Assembly: GCA_017506865.1 (NCBI GenBank)
Contig: JAFCMP010000176.1
Span: 1 to 64,000, forward strand
DNA length: 64,000 nt
From: Tribonema minus
Lineage: Eukaryota; Sar; Xanthophyceae; Tribonematales; Tribonemataceae
Direction: 5' to 3'
Every line of letters starts with the position of its first letter. Within the stretch, counting starts at the first letter, position 1. The translations under genes and the position numbers were made by a program. The notes under the pieces are model-generated. The model saw nothing but the letters and a program-made list of their open reading frames with translations, ran no database searches and was not told where the DNA came from. Of this stretch, positions 609 to 36,674 are shown one piece after another.

Positions 609-3440
609 CTACCTCACATCACCATCGCTCAAATCCATGTCATCGCCACTGTATGAATCTGAACCTCCCTGACCAGACTCCTGGCCCAAGGGGACCTCTT
701 CTGCGACCGTGGTCAGCAGTAGGTTCCAACTGGACATAGGGTCTGCCTCAGCCTGCTCGCTTGTAACTGCGGTGCTGTAGTAGTCAGGCCTCAGCCGCAC
801 GGTGATTAAACGCGTGACTGGGTGCCCGTTGTAATGCACGCGAAATGTGTACTTGCCGGCCCGGGGCAAGTATTCCTTGAGCACTGCACGGCTCCAACCA
901 GTTGCACTTTTGACTCTCACGGTCTGACCATGGTAAGTCGCACCAAAGTCTGGTGGGATCCCAGGGCACATTTCCTGCACCACCTTGGGGCTAGAAACCG
1001 TGACGCCCAGATCCTTTGCGCGCTGCTGAGTGGCTTCAGCCAACGCAATTGCGCATTGCAACTGCCGCTTTGTGAAGTCCTCCCAGTCACCATCTTCATA
1101 GCGCACGCGCCAGTACGGGGCGAGGTAACCAGTGATGGTTCCCCATAGGTACTTGACTTGTTGCTTAAGCGCGCCGCGCTCCTCACGCACCACCTTAGTA
1201 CCTCTCGGGAATAGGGCCAGCGCAGCCTCTTTCGTGGATACGCGCCGGTCCTCCCGTGGTATCCTCGTGGCGTAGTCAGGCATGTCATTCACATGCTTCA
1301 ACTCGTAGAGCGCGTGAAAAGTATCGAGCGTCCAAGGCATGGCAACCTCGAGTGCATCGTCCTCTGTCTTCCATGTGCTCAACGTACCATCTCTGAGCAG
1401 CCAACGGTAGTCCCACGAACCATTGGGGTTGTACCGGCGGTCTACCAGCCTCTCTAGCCAGCCATCCTTGGGCAGTTGCTTAATGTCTTCCTCATTAAGC
1501 ACCGCGTAGGGGTTGTCAAGTTCCATGACACTTGGCCTTAAATGAAAAGGCTTCATGTTGGTCACATGTGCCCGCGTGCGACGCACCCGGCGCCCCATCA
1601 TGCGGCATGAAAATGACAGCCCAGATCCGCCAGTTTCCTCTGCTACCACCCATGGTCCAATGAATTTAGGGTCCAGCTTCCTGGAGCGTCCCTTAGCAGG
1701 CTTCTGCTTGATCATGACCAGGTCCCCAACTTTAACCTTCATTGCGCGCTTGACCGCTTCATTAGCCTTGTCAACTCTGCGCGCCTTGATGCCATATGCC
1801 TCATCAATAACCTTCTGTGCCATTTTGAGGTTGACGCGCTTGCGTTCAATCTCAGAATGTAAGTCGCCACCATGCACTTCATCAGGGAAGGTTTCGAACG
1901 GCAGGGACGGCTCGCGGCCATACACACAGTAGAAAGGGCTCAGGCCTGTTTCTTCTCTGGGGGTGGACCGGAGAGCGAACTGCACAGCCTCAACGCCCTC
2001 ATGCCAATTCTGTTGGGTCTTGTCAACCCAGGCAGTCAGAATGGCCATGATGCGTTCATTTTGCCGTTCAGCGACCCCATTTGCCTGTGGGTGGTATGCA
2101 CTTGTGTCAATTTTCATGATCCTGAAAATTGAGCACAAATCGCGCACCACAATGTTCAGAAACTCCTTGCCTTGGTCCGACACCAGCTCCTCTAACATGG
2201 ATCCCATTTCTAGGATTACCTTGTACAAGAGCCTTGCAACCGTATGCATGTCCTTGTTTTTAATTGGCATGAGCCAGCAAAATCCAGAGCGTGCCTCAAT
2301 TACTGTCAGCAGCCCTATGTGCCCCTCTGAAGACACCACCGAGGTCATGGTGATGTCAGTGTGCGCTCGCTGAAACATGCGAGTTGGCAGTGTTAACATC
2401 ATCTTGGCCTTGCCAGTCGTAGCCTTCTTGCGCTGTAGGCAAGACATGCAACTAGTGACATACGTGTGTACATCACTGCTGATGCGAGGCCAGTAGAAGC
2501 GCTCAAACAGGCGGACATACGTGGCGCTTGCGCCGGCGTGACCGGCCGTGGCGTCGTCATGCCCCAGCCTCAAAACCAGAGGGCGCAGCGCGGCGGGTAC
2601 AAACCATTGGCGCAGCACCATCCCGCGTTTGGGGTGGCTGGTGGCCAGATGTACCAGCAGGCCGTCCTCCTCGTGACAGTACCAGTCACGGTTCACCATT
2701 AAGTGTGCAGCCAGCTCACTATCCTGCGGGTATATATTGTCCCTCAGAGTGCGTGACACTGCCTGACACAAGGGGTCCCGCTGCTGGAGCTCAATAAACG
2801 CTTCCCGGCTTAGCATTGCCGGCACAGGCGTGGTCCCGTCAACTGGTTCAGGGACCAGTTCATGGCTGGGCCTGCTGAGTGTGCGCTTACGGCGTGGCTC
2901 CGACACCCCCTCTGTTCGCTGCGGGGGGATGGCGCCCCCTGGTAGCGGTACAGCGGTGTTGGCAGCGACCCGGCGGCGCTTGGCAGATATGCTCGCAGTC
3001 TTGCTAGATGCCGGGGAGTCCCAGTCAGACTCTGCCGCCTCATCCATGCATGCATTAGCATACATATGCAAAGTAGCTGGACTGAAAGACATCGACGCAG
3101 TCTCTCCATCCGTCCACGAAGAGTCTTCCTCGTCCAGCTCACATAGCAAAACATTGACCTGTTGGACCGTAAGCGTAGCCAGCCTGGCTGCTATGCTTGA
3201 GTCCTCACTTGCATTCTTCATGGCTAGCTCATTGAGCGAGAAGGGAGTGCCCCACTCGTTGCTCACCAGTTTACCCCTGAAGTTGGCAATTTTAATTGCC
3301 GCTGCAGAAACATGTGACCCATGGTTGGTCGCCTTTGCTTGGTCAGCAAACTCCCCTAAGGGCGCCGCAAACTCTCCACAAAATGTGCAAACTTCACCCC
3401 TGAAGGTGGTGCTGCAAAGCATGGAATTGAGTCTGACCAT
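609..3440 (-). CDS. Retrotransposon ORF2: integrase with chromodomain-like and Tudor-like C-terminus
   Basis: 943 aa, the second half of the polyprotein. After a variable, partly charged N-terminal 200 residues come the integrase zinc module (H294, H301, C331, C334) and a complete DDE core: D362 in HTDIT, D422 in SDQGKEF and E458 in NGVAERQ, giving D-59-D-35-E spacing. A GPW motif lies near 595. Residues 655-700 (LERLVDRRYNP, YRWLLRDGTLSTWK) resemble a divergent chromodomain. Residues 747-795 (GTITGY, RVRYEDGDWEDF) resemble a Tudor-type fold, and 838-888 may be a second copy. The frame overlaps ORF1 by 85 bases and sits at -1 to it. It is open only from a TGA six codons before the Met at 3440, so it needs frameshifting, reinitiation or another mRNA. 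The final stop is TAG. Confidence 0.92.
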   Translation of the reverse strand: MVRLNSMLCSTTFRGEVCTFCGEFAAPLGEFADQAKATNHGSHVSAAAIKIANFRGKLVSNEWGTPFSLNELAMKNASEDSSIAARLATLTVQQVNVLLCELDEEDSSWTDGETASMSFSPATLHMYANACMDEAAESDWDSPASSKTASISAKRRRVAANTAVPLPGGAIPPQRTEGVSEPRRKRTLSRPSHELVPEPVDGTTPVPAMLSREAFIELQQRDPLCQAVSRTLRDNIYPQDSELAAHLMVNRDWYCHEEDGLLVHLATSHPKRGMVLRQWFVPAALRPLVLRLGHDDATAGHAGASATYVRLFERFYWPRISSDVHTYVTSCMSCLQRKKATTGKAKMMLTLPTRMFQRAHTDITMTSVVSSEGHIGLLTVIEARSGFCWLMPIKNKDMHTVARLLYKVILEMGSMLEELVSDQGKEFLNIVVRDLCSIFRIMKIDTSAYHPQANGVAERQNERIMAILTAWVDKTQQNWHEGVEAVQFALRSTPREETGLSPFYCVYGREPSLPFETFPDEVHGGDLHSEIERKRVNLKMAQKVIDEAYGIKARRVDKANEAVKRAMKVKVGDLVMIKQKPAKGRSRKLDPKFIGPWVVAEETGGSGLSFSCRMMGRRVRRTRAHVTNMKPFHLRPSVMELDNPYAVLNEEDIKQLPKDGWLERLVDRRYNPNGSWDYRWLLRDGTLSTWKTEDDALEVAMPWTLDTFHALYELKHVNDMPDYATRIPREDRRVSTKEAALALFPRGTKVVREERGALKQQVKYLWGTITGYLAPYWRVRYEDGDWEDFTKRQLQCAIALAEATQQRAKDLGVTVSSPKVVQEMCPGIPPDFGATYHGQTVRVKSATGWSRAVLKEYLPRAGKYTFRVHYNGHPVTRLITVRLRPDYYSTAVTSEQAEADPMSSWNLLLTTVAEEVPLGQESGQGGSDSYSGDDMDLSDGDVR

Positions 3441-6400
3441 TGCTCGTCTGCTTGCTCATACTCTCTAGGAGCGTCCAACTCTTTTTGCATAGGGAGCCTG
3501 GACAGGCCGTCTGCATTTGAGTTCACCAGGCCTGGTCGGTGTTGTACGGTAATGTCGTACTCCAGCAACCTCATAGCCCACCGCATAAGCTTGCCATTGT
3601 GGTCCTGCAAAGTCAGCAGCCATCGTAGGGCCGCCGCATCTGTAACCACTGTGACTGGGTTGCCCCACACGTAAGGTCGGTAATGGTTGAGTGACAGCAC
3701 GACGGCCAGGCACTCTAGCGCGGTAGCGCCAAGTTTGGCGTCTTGTGTGGAATTAATTTTTGAGAAGTAACCCACTACTACTTCCATTTCCTCCTTCCCA
3801 TTTACTGTGCGCCTGCGGCCTGCCGCGGGGGCAGCTTCTTTGCCACTAAGTGCCTGCACTGGTTTAAATTGCGTCAAAATGCCACTAGTGGCAGTTTGAG
3901 ATGCATCAGTGTACAGCACAAATGGTAGTGAGAAGTCTGGGTGTGACACCAGTTTTGCCTCGCACATTGCCTTTTTTAATGCCTCAAAGGCATCGCGCCT
4001 GCGCCTATCCCATACCATTTCTGCATCACTTTTGGTCAGCTCCACAAGTGGGGCTGCCAATGTCGCAAAATCTTGAACATACCGCCGGTAATAGTTGAAG
4101 CAGCCCAGTACTGTACGTACTAGCCCCTTGTCAGCTCTCCCTTTGGCATTCAATGGCGCGCTCATGTCAGACATTGCCTGAACCTTTTCTGGGTCCGGAC
4201 GAATGCCCCCTGATCCCACAATGTGACCAAGGAACTTGATCTCAGTTTGGAACCATTGGCATTTGTGCCGCGCCACACTTAGACCAGCGTCTTTGATGCG
4301 TGATAGGACGTCACGGATATGCGCAAGGTGCGTTTCCATGGAGTCATCATATATCAAGACGTCGTCGACGTAAACCATGGCATATGCACCTAGGGCAGCG
4401 CCCAAAGTGTTGTGCATCAAGCGTGTGAATTGCGCAGGCAAATTCACAAGCCCAAAAGGTGCCACTGTGTACTGCCATAGCCCTCCATCAGGTGTGCGGA
4501 ATGCCGTTTTAGGCTTGTCACTTTCGCGCAATGGTATCTGATGGTAGCCCGCGGCCATGTCGACTGAGGACACGTACCGGGCGCCCTTCATTTGATGCAC
4601 CATATCATCGATGTTGCCTAGACCTCTGCTGTCGCGCTTCGTGACAGCGTTGAGACGGCGGAAGTCCACGCAAAATCGTATCTTATCACCTTGCCTTGCT
4701 AGTACTGGGTTGCATGCCCATGGACCATTGCTAGGCTCCACTTGCTTGCGCACATGCATGGCCTTGACATGTTCCATGATGTACTCTGCCTCCTTTTGCG
4801 CCCACCTCCTAGCCTTTTCAGCGATAGGCATTGCATCACCAGTGTCAATCTCAAACTCCATGAGGTTTGTCACTGTCGGATTTTTGGGGTCCTTTGCAAA
4901 CACGCTCGCGAATTCGTTGAACACATCCATCAGATGCTCAGCATATGGCCTACCATCGGGGGCTTTCATATCATGAAGGTCACCTTTGGTGGGTAGCATC
5001 TCGCGTAGCTCTGCTTCAGTGCAGGGTTCCTGTGTGGTACGAGTGCGTTCTGTGCCTGGTGTAGCAGCAGACACATTAGCAGCACCATAGGTACCAGCAG
5101 CCTTCCCCAATGCAATTGCTCGCAGCGCCGCGGTTGCAGCGTAGCTGAACTCGCTGTTCGGGTGGTGAGCTGCAGCCACCTGCAAGAGCTGTTGCTCAAG
5201 CTTGGTCGCAGATGCGTCCTCCAACTCAATGATATCCTCAGGCGAAGCCGGCCGTGCCTCACCAATGAAGGTGTTTCTGGCCATAAGCACCGGCTGGTCT
5301 GAGAAGTTTACCATGCGTGCGCGCACAGGGTTGTGCGCGCCAACAATATCCACCGACATGGCGGCCTTTACGCCCCTTTCTTGCAACTTCAACATCGTCT
5401 GAGACATTGCGGGTTGTATTACTGCCGAGTAGGGGCTCAGCCCTTTCACTGGTGGGTGTAATGCAACTTCAACGTTCACCTCGGTGTGCGCTGGAATGAG
5501 TATGTCATTCACCAGGCACACGGCACGATGCGCAGGGGGGGCTGGTACTTTGGGGCTAATTTTCACAGCCCCTGCGGTCTTAGCGCCTTGCCACACCGTC
5601 CCATGCGCTGCCTCGCTGCCTAGCATCTTCAACTTTGGGCCGTCCGAACCTAACGGCTGGTATGTCAAATCCTCATAGTCAAAGAGGGTTTTGTACATGC
5701 CAAAGAAGTCGCTGCCTAGAATGGTGGTGATGGCCAAGTCCACAATGTAGAACTTGTGCCGCACCAGCTTGTTACCAAACCGTAAGGTGAGGTGCAAAGC
5801 GCCTACGATCTTGACCTGTGTGCGACTGTCTGCCAGTTCTATGACTGAATGGTCCCCCTTCTCAAGAGGGCATGTCGTCCCTGGAGATAGCTCATCCGCC
5901 GTTGCTTTTGCCATGATGCCTGCCTCAGCGCCGGGGTCCAGCAATGAGACAAAGTCTCGTTCTTTGAACCCACGTTGGTGCTGCACGCGTGCCTTCAGCC
6001 TGGCAAACCGCTGCTTGCTGGGCTGGCCACTTGGCAACACAACTGTCTCTCCCGGCCTCACCGAGGCGGGATCCACTTCAGCGGCTTGTGAGCGGCTCGC
6101 TTCATCGTGTAGCTTGGCAGCCACAGCGCTCACGCGAGGGTTGCCTAGCCCACGCCTGCGAGTTGCCTCATGCACCGTGTCGTCAAAGTGATGCTCGTCT
6201 TCACTGGCGTATGCACCTTGTGAGGAGCCGCTAGGGTGTGACTGCACAAGTTCCTCTTCCTCAACTTCATCAACATCAGAGTCTGAGTCATTGCACGAGT
6301 CATTGAGCGCTGTGCAAGACCAAGGACCTGTATTCAAACCTTCTGCACATATCATATCAGGGGTGACTGCATACTGCCAAGCACTGTATCGTGCGGTGAT

Positions 6401-9400
6401 GGCCGCAACCCTAGCCTGCACCTTGCCTTGCTCAGTAGGAGTCTCTGCCACATGCATGTAATCTTCAGACCCTGGCAGCATCCATTCAGGGGGGGGTGCA
6501 CTAGGGTCATGGTCCAGGCGGACACCCCGGGGACAAGGGGCGCCTACTTGAAGATCAAGCATGCCAGATCCCACAAGCCCAACGGCAATGTGAAAAGCCA
6601 TGCGTGGCATGACTAAGTTTACAAGCCATAACTTCATGTCCTCAATGGTGGCCTTGCATGGCAAGTCACGTGTAAAGGTGAGCAGGACAGCCATTTCACG
6701 CAATGACAGTACTCTTGCATTTTGCACAGGGCCAGCATCATGTTCATCATCAGCCACATAGTCAGCCAGATCCACTGGTGGTTTTCCAGGGTTCCGCCTG
6801 ACCGGGCTGGGCATGCAGTCATCGGCATCATACACACTCTTGGTACCCTTCACGCGAGATTTCCAAAAGAAACAGCGCTCAGGGCAGCGAAGAACGCGCC
6901 GTACGGACATGGGTAATGATGAACGCTGAATTGCATTAATTAACGCCCCGAACCGTGCCATAGCGGTCGTGACACCAACCCCTGCCCGCGCAATCACCAC
7001 ATACAGCCGCCGCCGGTGGCACGCTATGCTAAAATCCGACCCCTTCAGCTTGCTGACATAGAGACAGTAGCCGTGGGCCAGCAGCAAAGCCTGCGCGCGC
7101 GCCCACGCCTTGGAGCTGAGCATGGATACCACATTCTCGATGACACAGCAGCGCAGCTTCGCCCTCACAATCAGCCGCGCCGCCATGATCGTCACCTCCG
7201 CCGCTGCCCCCTCAACGCCACTCCCGTTTGCATAATCTGTGCACGGGGGGGACATTGTGGTGAGGTCAGGATCCAGTTCAGCCAGTGCTATGGCTACTGC
7301 ATCATCGCTCAGGCACGCGTTTAAAACCTTGTGGGTGCCAGGGTGCAGTTCGTGGTACGCCTCACACACGCGGGGGCACTTGTCAACAGCAAGTTGAGTG
7401 TCCACCACAAGGCCTGCCACACTTGCCTGCTTTAAACCCTCGTCCCAGCCACCAATGCCGCAGCATATGGAGGCGTGTGTCACATGCCGCGCTGCACCCG
7501 CCACTGGCATGCCAGCATCAGGGTCCTGTGTCACAGCGGTAGCACAGACAGGCGATTCGCTTGCATTAGGTATGGTAACCGTATGCGGCGAACCAGTGTT
7601 TGATGGGGGAGTATCGTTTGCACTATCACCTTCAAGTTGCATGTTAGCATCAGCCGTAGACTGCGACACTTCCGCGAGGGAAGGTACGCTGGGTAACGAA
7701 GGATGCAACATAGCCAGCAATACGGCGTCATTGTGCCCAGGCGCGCGCTCACGTGGTGAGGTTGCGATGGACGCGGAGACGCACATATCACGTTGACCAA
7801 AAGCATGTTCAAGTTCAACTGCGGCGCGCGCACCGCTGGTGCCACCCCCTGAGAGGGCCGCACGCGCGCGCGCGAGCGAAGTAGACTCACCCTGAGCCCT
7901 CTGCCAGGCCACAAAGGCCATCATCTTGTGATACTCGTCCGCCTCCGCTGGCGTTGGCGCAGCGGCAGCAGCCGCCGCTGCCACGACCGGCGCCTGCGGC
8001 ATAGCAGCCGGGGGCGGAAAAGGGGGGCGGGGACCGTACCGCGTGTACTGATTCGCCTGATGCGCCGGTGGCGCGCCGCGCGGCTCACCGCGCGGCCCGC
8101 CGTACGGTGCGGCGCGGGGGCGGCGGGAAGGATCAAACGCCGGGCAGTTGGGCGTGTTGCGATGCATGTCAACGGCGATACCGCGCGGCAGCGTTGTCTG
8201 GCAGTCAAAGCATACCCAGTGAGAACGCGGGTTGAACTGCACCATGCCTGAATTGTCATGCTCAGGCGCGGTGGGCCCACGCCTGGCGGGCGCGGCTGCC
8301 GGAGCCGACTTGGCGGCTACAGCAGCAGCTCGCACCTCCAAGGCTTTCTCCTTTTTGGCGAGGCGCCTCTCCTTGTCCGCCAGCGCCCTCTCCTTGCGCG
8401 CAATCTGCGAGGCAGAGGGCGTCTGGCGCGGCGCGTCACTTGCTTGCGACGCGTCGTCGCGCAAACTCTCGCGGTCAGAACCATCCTGCGACGTGGGTCC
8501 GCCCTTGCTCGCGGCATGGGCTTTCCCGTTCCAGGTGCGCTCAATGTGCTCCTGAATGCTCGCAAGACCAGCGTCCTGCCAGCCCCTCCCCAGTGCAACC
8601 CTAGCGGCCGTCCGCTCCTTGGATGAGATGAGGCGTAAGTAGTGAAGCTTTTCAGAAAACTCACGAGAACTTTCGCTACCACCTGCCTGTACAACCATGT
8701 TCCGCACGCGGAGAGCCAACTCCCCAGGGCTCTCGCTCGGGAGACGCCTGGCTTGAAGTAGAGAATTGTACACCTTCTCTTGGGCAGCTTCAGAGTTGAA
8801 GTGCTCAATTATGGCTGCACAACGTTCTGCGTACGTTAGCTGCTCCCACCCCTTCCGCTTGCCGCCGACCTCTAGGGACAGTAGGCGCACAGTTGAAAGT
8901 AAGGGTTTGTCCTTCGACGCCTTTATGGCCACACTTAGAGCGTGGACCTTGACGTCCTCTGCCATGGAGCGCAGCGCAGCGGTGAGTGAGTCAAGCCTGG
9001 TGACACATACACCTACGCGAGAAGAGAGGTCGGCTACGCCGGCAATCCTACCAGCCTTCGCATAGACGTCTCCCTTGCCCCTGTTAGCAGCGTCAGCGCC
9101 GTCCGCTCGGGACGGTTCACTGCCATCGTCGCTGGGGGTCGTGGTGACCCCAGTGCTCGACGGCGCAGTATGAGACATCTGAATCGAGGCCGCCACGCCA
9201 ACGCGGGGCGGGGCAACCTGGACCAAACGCCCTGCCTGCAAGTGCTGCACCAGCTGCACCTTCTCGAACGCCTTGAGACGGCGCAGTGTATCTGCATCGC
9301 CAAGATCGCGATCCATGATTGCGTCGAGTTCTATGCGAGCAGTCTCCAAAGCGCTGAATCTCTGTGAGTACGCGCAGCGGTCAACTTCTACCTGCTCCAT

Positions 9401-9913
9401 GCTCGCCTTAAGACGTGGAAGCTGGTACGTGATCGCATAGAGGTCCGTCTTGTACATTGTACGTTCAGGGGAACCCTCCTTGCTAGCATCGCGCAGGCCA
9501 CGCAACACCTTAGCCTGGGCGTCAAGGTCCTGGAAACGTTCTTGCAGCTGTACCTCGTCTGCAGACAGTCTCGCCGAGGCAGATGCCCCGGACTTGTGCG
9601 AGGCCGCCAACAGCTCGAGCAGCCGGGTATAACGGGCTCTGGATACGGTTAGACCGGCACCAGTCTCACCCGCATCAGAGCTGGCGTCGTCACCGGCGCC
9701 AGCGCATATCTCGTCGTCGAGCTCCGCCTCTCGCTCGCTACCGCCAACGGCCGGCGCAGGAGGGGTTGCGGGCTCCTTTGACGACTTGGACTTCTTCGCG
9801 GGCTTCTCCGGCTTGTCAGCCGGTGCCGCATCAGCCTTGCCCTTACTCCCCTTTCTTTTCGTGGAGGAGTCCGAGTCTGCACATGGAACAGGATCATGTG
9901 TTGAGTCTCTCAA
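3356..9913 (-). CDS. Retrotransposon ORF1: Gag, DNA methyltransferase, protease, RT, RNase H
   Basis: 2185 aa in one open frame. Residues 1-560 are Gag-like: a Lys-rich start, long helices and a charged coiled coil near 505-535. A CCHC-like finger uses C568, C571, H584 and C590. Residues 811-1120 are a cytosine-C5 methyltransferase. The aspartic protease (about 1315-1410) has LLDPGAE at D1326 and ILGSDFF near 1398; DPG replaces the usual DTG or DSG. RT spans about 1690-1880 with YVDD at 1848-1851. RNase H spans about 1995-2140 with YTDAS (D2003), E2067, D2092 and NADGLSR (D2135). The ORF stops with TAG inside the ORF2 overlap, just before integrase. I chose Met at 9913 because it opens the longest frame after the leader. 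Such a fusion should make reverse-transcribing particles that also contain a methyltransferase. Confidence 0.93.
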   Translation of the reverse strand: MRDSTHDPVPCADSDSSTKRKGSKGKADAAPADKPEKPAKKSKSSKEPATPPAPAVGGSEREAELDDEICAGAGDDASSDAGETGAGLTVSRARYTRLLELLAASHKSGASASARLSADEVQLQERFQDLDAQAKVLRGLRDASKEGSPERTMYKTDLYAITYQLPRLKASMEQVEVDRCAYSQRFSALETARIELDAIMDRDLGDADTLRRLKAFEKVQLVQHLQAGRLVQVAPPRVGVAASIQMSHTAPSSTGVTTTPSDDGSEPSRADGADAANRGKGDVYAKAGRIAGVADLSSRVGVCVTRLDSLTAALRSMAEDVKVHALSVAIKASKDKPLLSTVRLLSLEVGGKRKGWEQLTYAERCAAIIEHFNSEAAQEKVYNSLLQARRLPSESPGELALRVRNMVVQAGGSESSREFSEKLHYLRLISSKERTAARVALGRGWQDAGLASIQEHIERTWNGKAHAASKGGPTSQDGSDRESLRDDASQASDAPRQTPSASQIARKERALADKERRLAKKEKALEVRAAAVAAKSAPAAAPARRGPTAPEHDNSGMVQFNPRSHWVCFDCQTTLPRGIAVDMHRNTPNCPAFDPSRRPRAAPYGGPRGEPRGAPPAHQANQYTRYGPRPPFPPPAAMPQAPVVAAAAAAAAPTPAEADEYHKMMAFVAWQRAQGESTSLARARAALSGGGTSGARAAVELEHAFGQRDMCVSASIATSPRERAPGHNDAVLLAMLHPSLPSVPSLAEVSQSTADANMQLEGDSANDTPPSNTGSPHTVTIPNASESPVCATAVTQDPDAGMPVAGAARHVTHASICCGIGGWDEGLKQASVAGLVVDTQLAVDKCPRVCEAYHELHPGTHKVLNACLSDDAVAIALAELDPDLTTMSPPCTDYANGSGVEGAAAEVTIMAARLIVRAKLRCCVIENVVSMLSSKAWARAQALLLAHGYCLYVSKLKGSDFSIACHRRRLYVVIARAGVGVTTAMARFGALINAIQRSSLPMSVRRVLRCPERCFFWKSRVKGTKSVYDADDCMPSPVRRNPGKPPVDLADYVADDEHDAGPVQNARVLSLREMAVLLTFTRDLPCKATIEDMKLWLVNLVMPRMAFHIAVGLVGSGMLDLQVGAPCPRGVRLDHDPSAPPPEWMLPGSEDYMHVAETPTEQGKVQARVAAITARYSAWQYAVTPDMICAEGLNTGPWSCTALNDSCNDSDSDVDEVEEEELVQSHPSGSSQGAYASEDEHHFDDTVHEATRRRGLGNPRVSAVAAKLHDEASRSQAAEVDPASVRPGETVVLPSGQPSKQRFARLKARVQHQRGFKERDFVSLLDPGAEAGIMAKATADELSPGTTCPLEKGDHSVIELADSRTQVKIVGALHLTLRFGNKLVRHKFYIVDLAITTILGSDFFGMYKTLFDYEDLTYQPLGSDGPKLKMLGSEAAHGTVWQGAKTAGAVKISPKVPAPPAHRAVCLVNDILIPAHTEVNVEVALHPPVKGLSPYSAVIQPAMSQTMLKLQERGVKAAMSVDIVGAHNPVRARMVNFSDQPVLMARNTFIGEARPASPEDIIELEDASATKLEQQLLQVAAAHHPNSEFSYAATAALRAIALGKAAGTYGAANVSAATPGTERTRTTQEPCTEAELREMLPTKGDLHDMKAPDGRPYAEHLMDVFNEFASVFAKDPKNPTVTNLMEFEIDTGDAMPIAEKARRWAQKEAEYIMEHVKAMHVRKQVEPSNGPWACNPVLARQGDKIRFCVDFRRLNAVTKRDSRGLGNIDDMVHQMKGARYVSSVDMAAGYHQIPLRESDKPKTAFRTPDGGLWQYTVAPFGLVNLPAQFTRLMHNTLGAALGAYAMVYVDDVLIYDDSMETHLAHIRDVLSRIKDAGLSVARHKCQWFQTEIKFLGHIVGSGGIRPDPEKVQAMSDMSAPLNAKGRADKGLVRTVLGCFNYYRRYVQDFATLAAPLVELTKSDAEMVWDRRRRDAFEALKKAMCEAKLVSHPDFSLPFVLYTDASQTATSGILTQFKPVQALSGKEAAPAAGRRRTVNGKEEMEVVVGYFSKINSTQDAKLGATALECLAVVLSLNHYRPYVWGNPVTVVTDAAALRWLLTLQDHNGKLMRWAMRLLEYDITVQHRPGLVNSNADGLSRLPMQKELDAPREYEQADEQWSDSIPCFAAPPSGVKFAHFVESLRRP
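6554..7483 (-). other. C5 cytosine DNA methyltransferase domain within ORF1
   Basis: Residues 811-1120 of ORF1. Visible motifs: motif I, SICCGIGGWDEGL (816-828), the AdoMet site; motif IV, MSPPCTDY, with the catalytic Cys at 891; motif VI, VIENVVS, with Glu926; motif VIII, CHRRRLYVVIA (965-975). A target-recognition-like stretch follows, then a C-terminal segment near 1098-1117 where motif X is expected. Order and spacing match DNMT or M.HhaI-type enzymes. PPCTD replaces the common PPCQ. No chromatin-reader domain precedes it, so it looks like a bare catalytic domain. The predicted product is 5-methylcytosine in DNA. Sequence specificity cannot be read from the sequence. Confidence 0.9.
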
Positions 9914-11010: not shown

Positions 11011-11028
11011 GACTGTCTGTAGGTGCCA
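11011..11028 (-). other. Putative primer binding site
   Basis: On the minus strand, TGGCACCTACAGACAGTC begins immediately after the 5' LTR. A TGG start pairs with the CCA end of a tRNA, as expected for a PBS. The pairing tRNA would end in CTGTAGGTGCCA. It is not the common initiator-Met PBS (TGGTATCAGAGC), and I cannot name the tRNA. Confidence 0.7.
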
Positions 11029-11383
11029 TGAAACAAAGTTGGGGTTATATTTGTTATGTTAAGCCTGTCTTACTTGTAGATGGGGCAGCGTTGGCTTGGG
11101 CTGATTTAGACGGGTCCATGATGGTTGATGGTTGTTGGCTTCAGTTGTCTCTATCCTGGAGCCGTGGTATCCTAGCTGAGTGACAAGAACCGAGGCCTTG
11201 CAAGCACAACCCTTCATCTGGGGAGACTCAAGGGTCTCACCGGTTAAGGGGTTTTCCTGCAATGTTCCCCTAGTTCGAACCAATTGCCCTGGGCCCTAAT
11301 AACGGCCGAATATAATAGAGTTGAAACATCATAAGCCAGAAGGCTACATAAATAGTTTACTTTACATACAGCTGCCCGTGTCA
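11029..11383 (-). repeat. 5' LTR of the methyltransferase retrotransposon
   Basis: The second 355-bp LTR copy, apparently identical to 1-355. On the coding strand it is upstream of the PBS and should contain the promoter. A TATA-like tataat (11309-11314 on the plus strand) is present, but orientation and use are unproven. Confidence 0.95.
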
Positions 11384-15147: not shown

Positions 15148-15462
15148 TCACACAGCCATCGCCAGCGACTCCGCCTTTGCTAACGCTCTCCCCTCCAGAG
15201 GTACCCACAGTGCTGCGACTGGGGCCGTGGCAGGCTGTTCTGCAATAAGAGGGTCATCCGCCTCCACCTCCAGCTTCCTGTACCACCACTCATGCCAATG
15301 TTGCACCTGCATGCCCTTATAGAGCTGCAAGTAGCGAGGAAGCGCCTGTTGAAAAGCATCCTGATCGGGGAACTCCCTTGGGCAGAGTATATGCAGCAGT
15401 CGGTTGCGCTGATCTATGTCCTCTGGGTGTACTCCCCCTCCCCCGGCAAGAGACAACGCCAA
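15148..15462 (-). pseudogene. C-terminal tail of element 2 polyprotein, frameshifted
   Basis: 104 codons, open in the frame -1 to the integrase ORF and overlapping its end. The shift falls around a G-rich run (gggggaggggga in coding sense, about 15428-15440), a likely spot for an indel or slippage. The segment includes QHWHEWWYRKLEVEADD. I recognise no domain. By position it continues the polyprotein after GDWVYLTGAFW. Confidence 0.5.
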
Positions 15463-17456
15463 AATGCGCCTGTGAGATATACCCAGTCACCCTTTTGGAA
15501 GATGCGACCAGCATTAGGTCCCGCCTGCGCAGTGATGCGCTCATGCGGAGAAGTCTCCAATTCCCCTGGCAGTTGTGTGTCCGATTCTGGTGAAGATGAT
15601 GCTGGTACCGATCTGACATCGTAGGGGCGGAGTCGAATGGCGTGTACGTAAGGATTCGCCATCGCTGGGCCTGGTAATTGATCATGCCCGAGTGCTGGCT
15701 TCACCAGGTACGTATCACTGCGTGCCACGCGCCTCTCCACCACGTATGGGCCAAACCATCGCTCTGCAGTCAACTTAGGGCTACGCCCCTTGCGCCGCAA
15801 GAAATAGTATACCCACACTTTGGATCCCACACCAAACCGCCGTTGTACCGCCTCCGGAGACCCCGCAGCCTGATCCCGCAATTGCTGTTGTTCTTGCAGG
15901 AACACCCTGACAAGTTCATGCGAGGCCTGTAAGTCCTCCTCCAGCAACTCCATGTACTCTGCTACATCCCTCCAGCGCGGAGGCAACACGTTCCGCTGGT
16001 GTTCTAGCGCTGCCTCAAATGGTAACACTGCCTCTCGACCATAGAGGAGTCGGAAGGGGCTGACGCCGAAAGTCAAGTTGAGTGCTGTGCGGTGTGAGAA
16101 GAGGACCAAAGGTAGCCGCTCGTCCCAGTCACGCTGTCCACTGTCGGCAATCATGCTCAAGAGGGCCACTAACGACCCATTGGCTCGCTCCGTTAAGCCA
16201 TTGCACTGTGGATGATATGGGCTTGAGAATCGCCGTGAAACTCCCATCAGACGGGTCACCTCTCGCAGCAGCGTACTGCGAAATTCTGCCCCGTTGTCAG
16301 ACAGGAGAATGCGTGGAGCCCCGTGTCGCGCAATGACTTCTTGTACGAGGAGCCGTGCTACTGTCGGCGCCGTATGGTCAGATGTTGCAAACGCCTCCAC
16401 CCATCTAGTCAGGTAGTCCGTGAAGACAACCATGTACTTGTTGCCTCGATTGGAAACTGGGAAAGGCCCAACAACATCCACCCCCACCAAGTCAAACGGC
16501 CCTCGGAGTTCCTCCCTGCCAAAACCGCGCACTGGTACTCCGCTTTGCTGTCGGAGCTTCCGCGCCAAGCACGTAGGGCACTTCAGCACGTGCTCTGCGA
16601 ACGCAGCATACATGCCGACCCAGTAGAAACGCTGGGCAATCTTGGCAAATGTGTGATCGAAGCCGCAATGGCCTCCGCCAACTGGGTCGTCGTGTGCTCC
16701 ACTCAGGACCTGAGGGACCAACACTGCCGGTAACACCAACCTGTCCTCCTCAGGTACCCGCCTGCCGCGTCGTGCCGCAATATAAAGCCGCCCTGCTAGC
16801 ACATAGTAGCCAGCCCACTTGGCAGCATGTACCTCCTTGAGCTGCTGTTCCGAGAGGTCAGCGCTCACCACTCCGCCCTCCAAATGTGCCATTATTGCCC
16901 CTAGGAACGGGTCGGCGCGCTGAGCTGCTGACACATCGTCGCTCCCGGGTAACTTCGCCCTGCGACGTCCCACCAAGACCTGTGCGCCACATAGTGCCAC
17001 GCCACATTGGAAGCACCCCACCGCGTCTGCAGTGAGGCCCCGCTTGGTCAGACAGACGCACCCCCCTGAAACCACCGTCCTGCCCGCGGCGCCCTGTGAC
17101 TGCGCCTTTGCCTCCGGTGCCGTGTCCTGCCAGTGTCCTCCAACCAGGCGCGACAAAGCGTCAGCATTGGCGTTTTTGTGCCCAGGCCTGTACGCAATTG
17201 TCATGGCGTACTCCTGCAGCACTGTGACATAAGGTTCCTGCCGTTTAGTGCGTATGTCACTGGTGGGATTGAGCAGGTACTTCAGTGCGGCGTGATCCGT
17301 CTCCAGCACAAACGGACGCCCATTGTGCAACAAAGGTCTGAAGTGTAGAACTGCTTCCACCGCTGCCAGCGCTTCCCGGTCGTACACGGAGTAGTTGCGC
17401 TCCGCCTTGTTGAGAGTACGGCTGTAGTAAGCAAGCGGCTGTTCGGCATGACCACG
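15414..17456 (-). pseudogene. RNase H C-terminal half and integrase of element 2
   Basis: The frame continues directly after the TGA at 17459-17457 (RGHAEQPLAYYSRTL), so it is part of the RT polyprotein and not a separate gene. RNase H residues include E in YDREALAAVEA, D in ETDHAAL and D in NANADALSR. An unusual Cys-rich insert (CVCLTK, then CFQCGVALCGAQ) follows. Numbering from the Met at 17387, integrase has H232, H240, C270 and C273, then D304 (GVDVVGPF), D364 (SDNGAEF) and E400 (GLTERANG), with GPY near 546. All integrase catalytic residues are intact. It ends TAG, with the tail in another frame. Confidence 0.85.
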
Positions 17457-18059
17457 TCATTGTGATAGCACCACCCCCAGTCCCACATCACTGGCGTCGG
17501 TCTGGAGCACCAACTGCGTCACGCCCTTTCTGATGCCCTCGTAATCAGGGTTAGCCAGTAGAGGGGCTGACCGTAGAGCGTCCTTCAGCATGGACCAGGC
17601 TGCAACTACCTCGTCTGTGAGCTCGAAGCTGGCATCCTTCCGCAACAAAGCCGTGATGGGCTCTGCTATGTCCGAATAGTGCGGAATGTACTCGCGATAG
17701 TACGATGCCATCTGCAGGTATGACCTTGCTTCCGCCAGATTGAGGGGCGGCTCCAGTTTCTCAATCGCCGCCACCTTGGCCGGGTCCACCTCCCGACCAC
17801 CGCCGTGGACTATGTGCCCCAAAAACTTCACTTGAAGTTGAGCAAAGTGGCACTTGGTCGGTTTGAGCACCACTCCTGCCTGTGCTAACCTCGTGAAGAC
17901 CCGCTCCACGTGAACCAGGTGCTCGCTAAATGTGCGTGAGAAAATGAGCACGTCGTCGATGTAGACCAGCGCGTATACCCACAGAGCGTCGTGACCGACC
18001 GCTAGTTCCATCATACGCTGGAATGTTGCTGGCATACGCATGAGCCCCATGGTCCCCAC
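17457..18059 (-). pseudogene. RT palm and thumb plus start of RNase H, element 2
   Basis: Same frame as the RT segment upstream, entered after a TAG. It opens with VGTMGLMRMPATFQ, the equivalent of the usual MPFGL-APATF motif, then YIDD (ALVYIDDVLIFS), VKFLGHIV and the first RNase H Asp in LQTDASDVGLG. It stops at TGA right after VLSQ. The codon at 18059 is GTG, so there is no real start here. Together with its neighbours this would be one continuous RT-RNase H frame if the two stops were read through. Confidence 0.85.
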
Positions 18060-18640
18060 CTACCACTGAAACTGGCCCCAACGAGTCTGGAACGCTTTGA
18101 TCGGCCGTGACTCTGCGTCGAGCTCAATCTGCCAAAACCCATCCTGTGCGTCTGCGGCGGAAAAGTAGACAGCGCCGTCAAGCGCGTGGTGCATCTCGTC
18201 CGTGCGCGGCAACGGGTAAGTGTCCAACCCGTAACCCCTCTCCATGACTGCTTTGTTGACTGCACGTAGGTCCTGCACCACCTGAAGGCGGCCGTTCGGC
18301 TTGGGCACTAGTAGCAGTGGAGAGTTCCAGGGCGATGATGCTGGTTCGATGACCCCCATCCGCAAGAGCCGGTCAACCTCTTTCCAGAGAGTTTCCAACT
18401 CCAGGATTAAATATCGTCGCATCTTGGCCCTGTAAGGCGCAGAGTCACCCACATTGATATGGTGTCGAACCAGGGGCGTTGGCCGAGGCAGCTTGCCATC
18501 AAAACTGAACGCACCAACCTGCGCAAGCCGCAAAAGCACCAGGTCGAGCTCCATCTGCTCATCGTCGGTCAAGTGGGCCGTCCGTTCTCGTGTGAAACAG
18601 GCGAGCACGGCTATCTCCTCTGTTGTAGGTGGTGGGTGTA
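18060..18640 (-). pseudogene. RT fingers of element 2, ending in an in-frame TAG
   Basis: From the Met at 18608 it reads into a Ty3-type RT: YRAKMRRY, VIEPASSPWNSPLLLVPK, QDLRAVNK, YFSAADAQDGFWQI. The frame opens slightly upstream, after a TGA near 18650. It ends at TAG (18062-18060) between two conserved RT motifs, so the stop is within the enzyme core. The frame is +1 relative to the spacer ORF upstream. Confidence 0.85.
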
Positions 18641-19803
18641 CTCACGCCAGTCTTAAGGTGTTCACGCAGCCATTGCCAACGACCCTGCGTGCCATGCGGT
18701 AAAGTCGTAGGTTGCTCCTTTGCCGGAAGCGGATGTTGTCCTGGTGGCTCATTGATGTCTATAGCCGGTTGAGGTTCTGCCGCATTGCAGTCCTGCGCAA
18801 GAGAGGTAGTGTCAATTTGCACTCTCAAAATCGATTTGACAGACAACGTCGCTGTTGCTGCTGTTGCTTCTGAGGCCGTGGTACCTGAGTCACCCCCCCA
18901 TGCTTCAACATCCTCAGCCCATGTCACCTGCTTGCTCTCCTTTTTCTGCACAGCAGGCAGTGTTGCGCTATACTCCCCCCCTGCACACGAAGCGTGTGCA
19001 CAAGCGCAACCACTGGGCCGGGTGGGTGGGCGAAACTCATCCGGAGGTTCATCCTCCTCCGCGGTGTCGCCACTGGCACTGGAAGCAGAAGCATCAGTGA
19101 CATCAATGTGTGGGATGTAAGGGCCGCCAACAGCCTCAAATTTGGCCAGCATAGTGTTGGAGCCCTCCACGAAAAACAGTCCTGAGGCAACCGCTCCTGC
19201 CCTGATCTTGAGTGTGCACGTAGCCCACCCAGCGTTCTTAACCGGGCCCTGTAAATATGTGGCTGCCACAAGAGCGAACCGTTGGCGAGAGTAAGGCTGT
19301 TCTGCCATGAGCGGCACTTGATCAAAGGGGTGGACGCCGTCCAGACCATCGGCAGGCGGTACGTCCTCGTTCAACTCCACTCCCTTTCTCGCTCCGCTGT
19401 TCAACAAATTGAGCTCTGCCTGCAGTAGTATTGGCAATTGCGCGGTCGCCGTTGCTCCAAACGCCCATGCCACAGCTTGCGCCTTGCACTGTTGCAGTGT
19501 TGGCAGTGACGGCATCCGCATTTGGCATTTGGGTACCGCCGCCAAGCCGGCCGCCTCCACCGCATCTGCTACTCTGTCTGTGACTGACCCCCTCGCCGAA
19601 CGGGCGCTTGAAGCCGCAAAGCTCGAAACCGAAGCAACTGGATGTACGTCATCTGCCTCCACCATGCCAGCTGTTGAACGCTTTTGTTGTGGTGGCTCGC
19701 AATTGGGCTCATCTGCCTCTCCGCCCAGCCCTAGAGGTGGGCAGTCCGCGTATATGCCATCTACCAGGCACACTCCCTGCATTGATACCTCCGCGGTCTG
19801 CAA
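18559..19803 (-). pseudogene. Spacer region between methyltransferase and RT, element 2
   Basis: 414 codons, Ala- and acid-rich. No catalytic domain recognised. The stretch around CTLKIRAGAVASGLFFVEG resembles the LVEP-type spacer that normally lies between protease and RT in Ty3 elements. It overlaps the methyltransferase frame by 95 bases and the RT frame by about 50, each in a different frame, so it is probably one polyprotein broken by indels. Confidence 0.55.
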
Positions 19804-20811
19804 GTCCTGTATTGGGCTGCTCAGATCTGGACGACGCCGGCTGTGCGAATATGGCTTTCAGCACTGCTGCTCGCACTTGCGGCACCACCATGTCTGCCAA
19901 GCCCTGTGCCCAGGTTCGCTTAGTGGTGCCAACCGGCACTTTCAGGTACAGAGCACCGACCAGACGCATTTTCTGCAAAGGGGACAGCGTCGTGAAGTCA
20001 TCCACTCCAACTTTGTCTCTAGGCCGTGGTTGCAGTCGGTGCTGTGGTTTGTTGCATGTAAACATGCGAGCCTGAGCATTGGGATACTTGCCAGTCGTCG
20101 GATAGACCTGTGGGCCTTCCCTGCTGCGAGGTTGATTCCACACGCCTGTGGAACCTGTACGCAGCAAACCCTCAATGCTACACTGCTGATCTGGAGGCAG
20201 CCGTCCACTGAGGAGTTGCAGAGACATCTGTGCTAGGGCGTCACGCACTTCAGTCCCACCCTGAGCCATGACTACAAATAAGCGCCGCCGCTGGTATGGT
20301 GGCCCAAAGTCACTGGCGTTCAGCCGTAGGAAGCACAGATGATACCCCCTTTCGCGTGCTAATGCAAAGGCCTCCTGTCCTCGAGTCATTGACTCAATAG
20401 ACACAACATTTTCCAACACCACCAGTGGCATCTGCATTTGCGTCAGCTGATGCACCAGCAAGGGCGTGAGGGCTGCTCTGGTGCCCTCTCTACGCTCCCC
20501 TTTGTCTGCTCGTACCAAGCGTGCTGGTGTGAAATCTGTACAAGGGGGCCCCGTTACTACCATGCCAGCGCCAGAGGCCGCCAGTTCCTCCCACATGTCA
20601 GAGGTGTACGGGTCTCTGGTGGAGAGCTCAGCACCAACACCTCGATTGGCATCGTAACGGGCTTCGCTGCGGCGTTGCGGTCCATGGCGTACACTACACG
20701 CCCTCCTGCCATCTGTACGGCACGGCTGAACCCCCCAATGCCGGCACAGAGGTCTGCCACTTTTACCGCGTCCGGCCCAGGGTCCCCCATATCACCTGGC
20801 TGTTCCCAGTC
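19709..20811 (-). pseudogene. C5 cytosine DNA methyltransferase of element 2, frameshifted
   Basis: Motif I is in the frame 20811-20557 (VADLCAGIGGFSRAVQMAG, then VYAMDRN). Motif IV (VVTGPPCTDFTPA), motif VI (VVLENVVSIES) and motif VIII (YQRRRLFVVMA) are in the frame of 20596-19709, at -1 to the first. The break falls between motifs I and IV, at about 20600-20665. All key residues are present, so one indel or frameshift separates it from a full catalytic domain. It shares PPCTD, ENVVS and RRRL(Y/F)VV with the methyltransferase at 6554-7483. The upstream TAG at 20814-20812 is in frame with motif I. Confidence 0.88.
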
Positions 20812-35441: not shown

Positions 35442-36674
35442 TTACTTCATTGACAATGTCAAGTGCTTGCATGCGGCCTTGTGCGTAGGCGTCACTGCTC
35501 GAGATGTTTTCCATGAGTTGAAGTAGACCTTGGAAAGTGTTCGAGAAAACTTGACTGCGAAGAAGGGCCGCATTTGACGGTACGGGTCGTTCTCAGAAGT
35601 GAATGCCTCAGCGATGTTGACTGCGCTAGCATATTGGCTGATGGCATCCTCCAGGCTCGTGCCTTCGGGGACTGTGAACTGCTCCAATGCTTGTGAGTAC
35701 TGGTCAGGGTTCCCCTTGTGCAATACCTCTGCAATTTCAACTTCAACTTTCTTTAGCAGAATTGAGTCAGGCATGCCACCTGTCTCCTCCTTGACGCGCC
35801 GATCTATCATGCCATCGATGTGGTTCGCCAGGCGCTCTGCACTGGCTAGCCCTACTTTCTTGTTGATGCACTCTTTGACGAGCAACAAGTAGGTACGCAC
35901 CCAGTCACACTGATAGTTGAAGTCAGAGTGGCGCAGGTGCTCAATGTGGCGCAACCCGCGGGGTTCATTCCGCCTGCTTACATCTCTAGTGCATGCAGTG
36001 GTCACAGCATCACGCAGTTTCTTCAGCACGTCTGGAAGCCACTTGGCGTTGGTCAGGTAATCATTGGGTGGTATTGACAGCCCTACTGGCTTTTTGATCT
36101 CGGGTTTGGCGCGCTCACCTCTTCCATCATGGCGGTCCGATGCTGAGAATGATGTGCTGGTGGAGTGCGCTACTGATCCCGCCATACTGCGGGTATCACC
36201 GCTGTCTCCCCCGCCGCCGCCTCCGCCGCCACCACCGCTGCCGCCACCGCCGCCGCTGCCGCCGCCGCCGCCACCACCATTTCTGCCACCGCTGCCCCCG
36301 CAGCCTCCGCCCCCAGGACCCCCGGCGCCGCCCAACCCCCTGCCGCCGCCGCCAAGATCGCCGCCACTGCTGCTGTCATCTCCTCCACCGCCGCCGCCGC
36401 CACCAGCGCCGCTGCAGGCCGGAGGGGTGAAGCTGGGCGACTGCGATCCGCGCATGGCGTGCTCATCACGTTGTACCATGGCGTCCGCCTGGTCCGCTGT
36501 CAGGGCTGCTACAATCGTGGGGCCAGTGGTGCGCCACAGTCGCAGTGTCTCCAGCACACCGTTGTGCCAAAGCATTATCTGCTCCAGCGCGCCATCAGGT
36601 ACTGGCTGTCCCCTCGACATGTCGCCATACAGTCCTGCGATGGACATGCGCATGTCTGCTATGTCGCGTTCCAT
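35442..36674 (-). CDS. Gag-like ORF with poly-Gly linker
   Basis: 410 codons. Residues 1-80 are helical. A Gly-rich linker (about 89-160; CCGCCR repeats on the plus strand, 36189-36425) follows. The C-terminal 220 residues form a compact helical domain (LPDVLKKLRDAVTTACTRD, CDWVRTYLLLVKECINKK, NPDQYSQALEQF) resembling capsid-like parts of retrotransposon Gag. No zinc knuckle, protease or RT follows downstream. It overlaps the upstream ORF by 16 bases at -1 frame, its ATG lying in that ORF's final codons. It could be ORF2 of a non-autonomous element or a host gene derived from Gag. Confidence 0.45.
   Translation of the reverse strand: MERDIADMRMSIAGLYGDMSRGQPVPDGALEQIMLWHNGVLETLRLWRTTGPTIVAALTADQADAMVQRDEHAMRGSQSPSFTPPACSGAGGGGGGGGDDSSSGGDLGGGGRGLGGAGGPGGGGCGGSGGRNGGGGGGGSGGGGGSGGGGGGGGGGDSGDTRSMAGSVAHSTSTSFSASDRHDGRGERAKPEIKKPVGLSIPPNDYLTNAKWLPDVLKKLRDAVTTACTRDVSRRNEPRGLRHIEHLRHSDFNYQCDWVRTYLLLVKECINKKVGLASAERLANHIDGMIDRRVKEETGGMPDSILLKKVEVEIAEVLHKGNPDQYSQALEQFTVPEGTSLEDAISQYASAVNIAEAFTSENDPYRQMRPFFAVKFSRTLSKVYFNSWKTSRAVTPTHKAACKHLTLSMK

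Follow-up and report, generated by a model that had tools for sequence, protein, structure and literature searches.

A C5 cytosine methyltransferase domain in the Gag-Pol of Ty3-type retrotransposons of Tribonema minus, with intact and altered catalytic motifs in one genome

Why does a retrotransposon carry a DNA methyltransferase? The question is raised by the first 64,000 bases of contig C176 of the yellow-green alga Tribonema minus (class Xanthophyceae; C176:1–64000, hereafter the window), which begin, on the reverse strand, with a long terminal repeat (LTR) retrotransposon holding a C5 cytosine methyltransferase (MTase) inside its Gag-Pol frame. This observation is confirmed. An earlier reading of the sequence alone had described a complete C5 MTase within one open frame, and profile, motif and structure matches agree on it—the domain search of the 2185-residue frame did return a C5 MTase match. 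That reading had listed motifs I, IV (with Cys891), VI and VIII, and our analysis likewise recovered motifs I and VIII, the motif IV cysteine, the ENV of motif VI and the fold across the whole domain. The sequence evidence indicates that the MTase was captured long ago by a Ty3-type clade of T. minus and retained in Gag-Pol as a functional component, given its integrity, its position, the purifying selection acting on it and the history it shares with the reverse transcriptase (RT) in lineage A, the group of families to which the window element belongs.

The element is bounded by two identical 355-bp LTRs, the 5′ LTR at 11029–11383 and the 3′ LTR at 1–355 (first mismatch at base 356), in keeping with its earlier description as recent. 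Directly after the 5′ LTR lies a candidate primer binding site, TGGCACCTACAGAC (11015–11028, read from sequence alone), and a candidate polypurine tract (356–368, also read from the sequence) adjoins the 3′ LTR, where such a tract has its role in LTR elements; paired LTRs with both candidate sites are as in Ty3/Gypsy LTR retrotransposons. The start of the contig coincides exactly with the outer edge of the 3′ LTR at window position 1, as if the assembly had halted in the repeat. ORF1 (3356–9913, 2185 aa; the bounds are those of the open frame and the start codon is putative) runs from a Gag region through the MTase domain (6554–7483, 310 aa), where SPPC with the predicted catalytic Cys891 lies within 7232–7252, to a protease-like region (5594–6043), an RT (3974–4813; PF00078, E 1.5e-29; YVDD at residues 1848–1851) and RNase H. 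Gag and protease gave no Pfam match at E up to 1 and were placed by position, motif and conservation: the Gag region ends in a zinc-finger-like motif, C-X2-C-X12-H-X5-C (8144–8212), a similar motif occurring in the protein P0006, and the protease-like region, which is kept in relatives, carries LLDPGA at 5912–5944, with D-x-G-A/S seen there by eye in the relatives. The MTase is thus flanked by the finger-like motif and the protease-like region, much as had been proposed. ORF2 (609–3440, 943 aa) contains, by Pfam matches, an H2C2 zinc-binding domain (Integrase_H2C2, E 1.5e-18), an integrase core (rve, E 3.5e-10) and a Tudor-like C-terminal stretch (PTM_DIR17_Tudor, E 1.4e-4, 22.1 bits, under the Pfam cut-off of 27.2). 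Its frame differs from that of ORF1 in the window copy, the break falling between RNase H and integrase, and the Pfam-defined order of RT and RNase H in ORF1, then integrase in the downstream ORF2, is that of Ty3/Gypsy.

The genome holds many such loci. A search with the window MTase gave 128 scored matches among 437 candidates and a PF00145 search gave 123 among 378; merged, the two lists comprise at least 203 distinct loci, a figure that counts the matches listed, not every one of which was shown to sit in an element, and that includes four host-gene-like loci (L039–L042). Open frames of at least 1000 aa enclose 88 of the 123 PF00145 matches, and frames of at least 2000 aa enclose 48. At least 31 loci, the window copy included, match the window MTase over its full length at 98–100%, and eight of these 31 have a single open frame of 3104 aa, where the window copy is split instead. 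MTase, protease-like region and RT follow one another in identical order in all 20 of the 6.5-kb relatives compared (L019–L038; 50–100% MTase identity), with Gag matched in 15 of them but neither in the four 50% relatives nor in L022. Viewed from the RT side, a listed MTase lies no more than 4.5 kb upstream in 106 of 138 scored RT relatives (138 scored among 549 candidates); four of the remaining 32 were read, and all four hold an MTase—one whole, three partial. Lineage A comprises the window element and families F2, F7 and F8; in each of these three families the RT is 54–65% identical to the window RT, and a match to the protease-like region falls between the MTase and the RT. Lineage B (F4, F5 and F6), whose RTs are just 32–36% identical to the window RT, also carries RT downstream of the MTase in all three families, and a DSG motif, judged protease-like by eye, stands upstream of the MTase in L075 (F6) and L076 (F4). 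The T. minus protein P0006 (JKP88DRAFT_250746) holds a Gag-like piece and an MTase piece of the window family, and relatives beyond the assembly exist as JGI-sourced proteins (P0001–P0005, 44–79% identity). Among individual copies, L022 is a possible recombinant with a non-homologous upstream part, L067 another with the N-terminal half of its MTase exchanged, and the match at C311:3913–4836 lies within a 6208-aa open frame, roughly double what is usual, as though a pair of elements had been joined with no stop between them.

Selection on the MTase was gauged among subfamilies. Among the window copy, L023 and L024 (relatives at about 80%), MTase Ka/Ks is 0.12–0.16 at Ks about 1, and RT Ka/Ks is 0.02–0.05 with Ks saturated. 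The lineage B pair F6/F6b gives 0.064 for the MTase at Ks 0.40, and the further comparisons give 0.20–0.23 (F5/F6), 0.18 (F4/F4b) and 0.21 (F7/F8); within young families there are too few changes for the ratio to be used (0.08–0.83, and 1.59 for L074/L083 of subfamily D2, described below). The cysteine of motif IV and ENV are kept in all 40 counted copies of lineages A and B and of F3, the family of a second element in the window; one of these copies, L038, has a stop. The count includes L051 and L056 by eye, as their motif IV reads APCV and the motif pattern missed both. Outside it stand the host-like L039–L042, four copies with motifs seen by eye (L046, L052, L054 and L055) and L065–L068, among which L065 has PSC and ENV, and L067 and L068 are without the motif IV/ENV part of the MTase.

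A different state of the enzyme is found in lineage D (L073, L074 and L077–L087), which was found via a lineage B RT (36–37%) and has the order Gag, protease-like motif, MTase-like domain and RT. The PPC loop of motif IV typical of C5 MTases is present in none of the 13 copies read: it is altered in eight, in which the cysteine persists, and deleted in five. The five are the D1 copies read (5/5), which lack the loop together with its catalytic cysteine and have ENA for ENV; in D2 (5/5) and D3 (3/3), TRC takes the place of PPC and ENV is retained. Pfam still matches these MTase-like domains (E 1e-4, 2.5e-9 and 3.5e-13). D1 numbers at least 27 loci at 98–100%, four of them within frames of 3452–3455 aa, and D2 and D3 together account for 33 loci among the matches listed (a hand count of rows). 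Ka/Ks is 0.14 for D1–D2, 0.16 for D1–D3 and 0.21 for D2–D3, and the D1 branch by itself has Ka 0.08 and Ks 0.85. These values provide good but not final evidence that selection acted on the D1 domain after loop loss, since Ks, at 1.4–1.6, is near saturation and the deletion could fall anywhere along the D1 branch. The D2 and D3 enzymes may not be dead, as they retain the cysteine; the lineage D domain probably acts as a nucleic-acid-binding or particle-assembly module.

How often the MTase entered the polyprotein was approached with two trees, which concur on lineages A and B. In the 29-row MTase tree, support is 99/96 for A, 100/100 for B (with P0008), 99/97.5 for D with F3, and 96/95 for A, D and F3 together, and a clade of all element MTases receives 55/26 (AU p 0.213). 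In the 11-row RT tree, in which lineage D was left out, A has 97/97 and B 100/99, and the long branch of F3, insecurely placed, falls between the two. These sequences neither show nor reject a single origin for all element MTases. Because the order of MTase and protease differs among lineages and the trees leave a one-clade origin open, the history could be either two insertions into the polyprotein or one insertion plus a move.

We tentatively read the enzyme itself as captured from a bacterial/phage-like source, in contrast to the Klebsormidium Dnmt3, with a tree that has no Dnmt3 or Dnmt6 references. PADLOC and PHROG models (PHROG_116) match the window MTase over most of the domain, and M.HaeIII was the top match in a model-based structure comparison (18% identical in the structural alignment); phage relatives are merely 22–31% identical. 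M.HaeIII, M.HhaI and PHROG_116 share fold and motif order with the element MTase across the whole domain but are stand-alone enzymes. A profile of 12 element MTases searched against PDB at E up to 0.001 matched Dnmt2, M.HaeIII, DNMT1, M.HhaI and DNMT5 (under an entry named Rad8), with Dnmt2 chains as best matches (E 1.1e-23). DNMT3 was not among the 53 PDB sequences matched by this profile, nor among the 50 entries listed in the structure comparison, where its absence excludes nothing. Grouping the A, D and F3 enzymes with the Dnmt2-like exon of the host is not rejected (AU p 0.147). The lineage A profile added one further protein outside the JGI and Tribonema relatives (P0007, ENA, 426 aa, 30%); no match was found in IMG/VR viral contigs with the queries A1, P0007 and A4 or in GTDB genome contigs with P0007, and polyprotein region 760–1200 as query yielded no homologous proteins. 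The loci L039, L040 and L041 are single-frame C5 MTase ORFs of 367–390 aa apparently without an element, possibly viral genes in the algal genome; L039 and L040 group with phage MTases in the tree, which does not include L041. L042 is a Dnmt2-like exon of the host, and L012 is a light-harvesting exon with seemingly more than one antenna domain per frame (by eye), which suggests a polyprotein-like gene. When two light-harvesting exons were compared with PDB, one (L011) matched antenna proteins of the fucoxanthin type (Fcpb5, 112 bits) and the other had its best match in LHCI chains of entry 9vfj; a PF00016 search of the genome yielded two short fragments, both with an internal stop.

What might such an enzyme do for its element? 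In LTR elements, Gag-Pol is packaged and double-stranded cDNA is made inside the particle. On balance, and by a small measure, we favor the view that the captured domain is a catalytic C5 MTase that is carried in Gag-Pol into the particle and marks the element's own cDNA, with lineage D as a non-catalytic branch. The MTase would most likely be packaged there with protease and RT and would methylate the new double-stranded cDNA before or at integration. The sequence-only reading, which is supported in its structural part, had likewise raised methylation of the element's own cDNA, as something that might hide or tame copies. Since the host is reported to be without DNMT1 but with DNMT5, the latter could copy marks set by the element, so that each new copy would arrive pre-marked. 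According to the available text of PMC10538959, T. minus has lost DNMT1 and has DNMT5, HELLS and a CDCA7-like protein, on which account a maintenance route may exist in the host; one protein was placed with DNMT4, and a host de novo enzyme such as this DNMT4-like protein is possible. Isolated DNMT domains of other retrotransposons are reported to methylate CG in yeast (PMC5890265).

Several observations weigh against a catalytic, self-marking enzyme. Motif X is degenerate in the window MTase, and a Thr occupies the motif IV position at which classical C5 MTases, with PCQ, have Gln; L066, one of the copies outside the 40-copy count, has SSC and has lost the E of ENV. The RT seems to be under tighter constraint than the MTase, though RT Ks is saturated, and Ks between subfamilies is high, F6/F6b excepted. 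Lineage D is abundant despite its altered or deleted motif IV loop, and catalysis is therefore not required in every lineage. The SymbioLINE domain tested in yeast gave no DNA methylation, as the available text of PMC5890265 has it. Finally, the element interior shows none of the CpG depletion that might signal self-methylation, its CpG observed/expected ratio being 0.82 versus 0.79 for the remainder of the window. The ratio is 0.46 in the 355-bp LTR, 0.70 in L073 and 0.96 in L062. Ten near-identical copies—12 minus L022, for its non-homologous upstream part, and L008, whose 40 singletons are mostly clustered at one end—carry 23 singletons, of which 10 are C:G>T:A changes, six of these falling at CpG (P 0.024, reference share 289/1112). 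Together with the LTR ratio, the six weakly suggest CpG methylation of the copies by some enzyme, the singletons being too few to rely on.

Other accounts of the domain have to be set beside this one. That it is kept mainly for a non-catalytic job, such as nucleic-acid binding, assembly or polyprotein spacing, with catalysis incidental or lineage-specific, is a serious but somewhat doubtful alternative: it would accommodate the deleted D1 loop, the TRC of D2 and D3, the low Ka/Ks values within lineage D (including the D1 branch) and the many near-identical D1 loci with their long frames, but the near-saturated Ks and the unplaced deletion blunt these points, and the cysteine and ENV of the 40 counted copies would be expected to vary if catalysis were irrelevant. 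It is unlikely that the MTase targets host or rival-element chromatin, for instance to start silencing where the element integrates, in concert with the Tudor-like tail of the integrase; the C-terminus of ORF2 and a Tudor-domain Gypsy homolog reported in T. minus (PMC12477816, as available) fit such a role, but the MTase coding sequence sits on the Gag flank of the protease, not beside the integrase, and the Tudor match lies under the Pfam cut-off. We hold out little prospect for an RNA methyltransferase of Dnmt2 type acting on element RNA or primer tRNA, to which the lead of Dnmt2 chains among the PDB profile matches and the AU value of the clade with the host Dnmt2-like exon would point. A passenger domain or an assembly artefact, which the split polyprotein frame of the window copy might suggest, is scarcely credible against the large copy number, the purifying selection and the JGI-sourced relatives—the same evidence that answers the sequence-only reading's concern about the assembly.

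Returning to a self-marking enzyme, a wider proposition can be offered tentatively, as one that we think may well fail: the MTase domain would be a general part of Ty3-type Gag-Pol in T. minus, gained at or moved to two polyprotein places, with catalytic motifs intact in A, B and F3 and a conserved pseudo-enzyme at least in D1, and the elements might themselves be the source of much of the de novo cytosine methylation in the genome, given a host reported to have DNMT5 and no DNMT1. The reported DNMT4-like host protein could, however, serve as that source instead.

The principle of MTase capture by retrotransposons was already known, as the sequence-only reading had noted (de Mendoza et al. 2018, PMC5890265). 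As described in the available text of that report, KnitGypsy-Dnmt3 of Klebsormidium nitens resembles the window element in being an LTR Gypsy with a C5 MTase in its polyprotein under purifying selection, but its enzyme is of Dnmt3 type and encoded in the Pol ORF, its repeats are arranged in a DIRS-like way and its host is a streptophyte. The Tribonema elements, in contrast, occur in a stramenopile, have LTRs of the ordinary kind and carry a bacterial/phage-like MTase; they form several lineages, with two MTase positions and, in one lineage, a motif IV loop that is altered or deleted. SymbioDIRS-Dnmt3 and SymbioLINE-Dnmt of Symbiodinium are similar in their hundreds of retrotransposon MTase copies, and SymbioDIRS in having two domain orders, but they belong to the DIRS and LINE types, neither being a Ty3-type LTR element, and their enzymes are of Dnmt3 or a Symbiodinium-specific class (PMC5890265, same text). 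Gypsy-10_Ec32 of Ectocarpus and its T. minus homolog share with the window element the Ty3/Gypsy type and, to judge from its match under the Pfam cut-off, perhaps a Tudor-like tail after the integrase; the available text of PMC12477816 does not mention a C5 MTase in them and says that Ectocarpus lacks cytosine methylation. Stramenopiles are named in the available text of PMC6338049 among the hosts of adenine- or cytosine-MTase retrotransposons, lumped together and without detail. Our literature searches found no published report of C5 MTases in Ty3 elements of Tribonema or other stramenopiles, which supports the earlier suggestion that host and architecture may be new. With these elements, the known capture of cytosine MTases by retrotransposons comes to include a stramenopile host and, seemingly, a bacterial/phage-like enzyme. 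Their interest rests on this enzyme, on the two polyprotein positions, on the conserved broken-loop lineage and on scale—some 200 loci among the matches listed, for a genome of 158 Mb. With intact and broken catalytic motifs in one genome, the contribution of catalysis can be separated from that of the domain, and the question why a retrotransposon carries a DNA MTase therefore becomes directly testable.

The second element of the window, at 15417–20811 on the reverse strand, is a decayed Ty3-like element with broken frames and a different C5 MTase, that of family F3. Its MTase lies in pieces in different frames (19712–20791 and 20560–20811; PF00145, E 9.8e-10) and is 33% identical to the first window MTase over 120 aa; its RT (17460–18641) has an internal stop, and RNase H and integrase follow at 15417–17456 (rve, E 1.1e-15). 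A lineage D-group RT lies on the same contig past the window end (C176:80364–81122). Elsewhere in the window, two long low-complexity ORFs with a Gag-like look occupy 35442–38575 on the reverse strand, the one searched (35442–36674) being without a Pfam match, and an ORF on the forward strand at 57380–58237 resembles a Beta-helix/Chlamydia PMP repeat.
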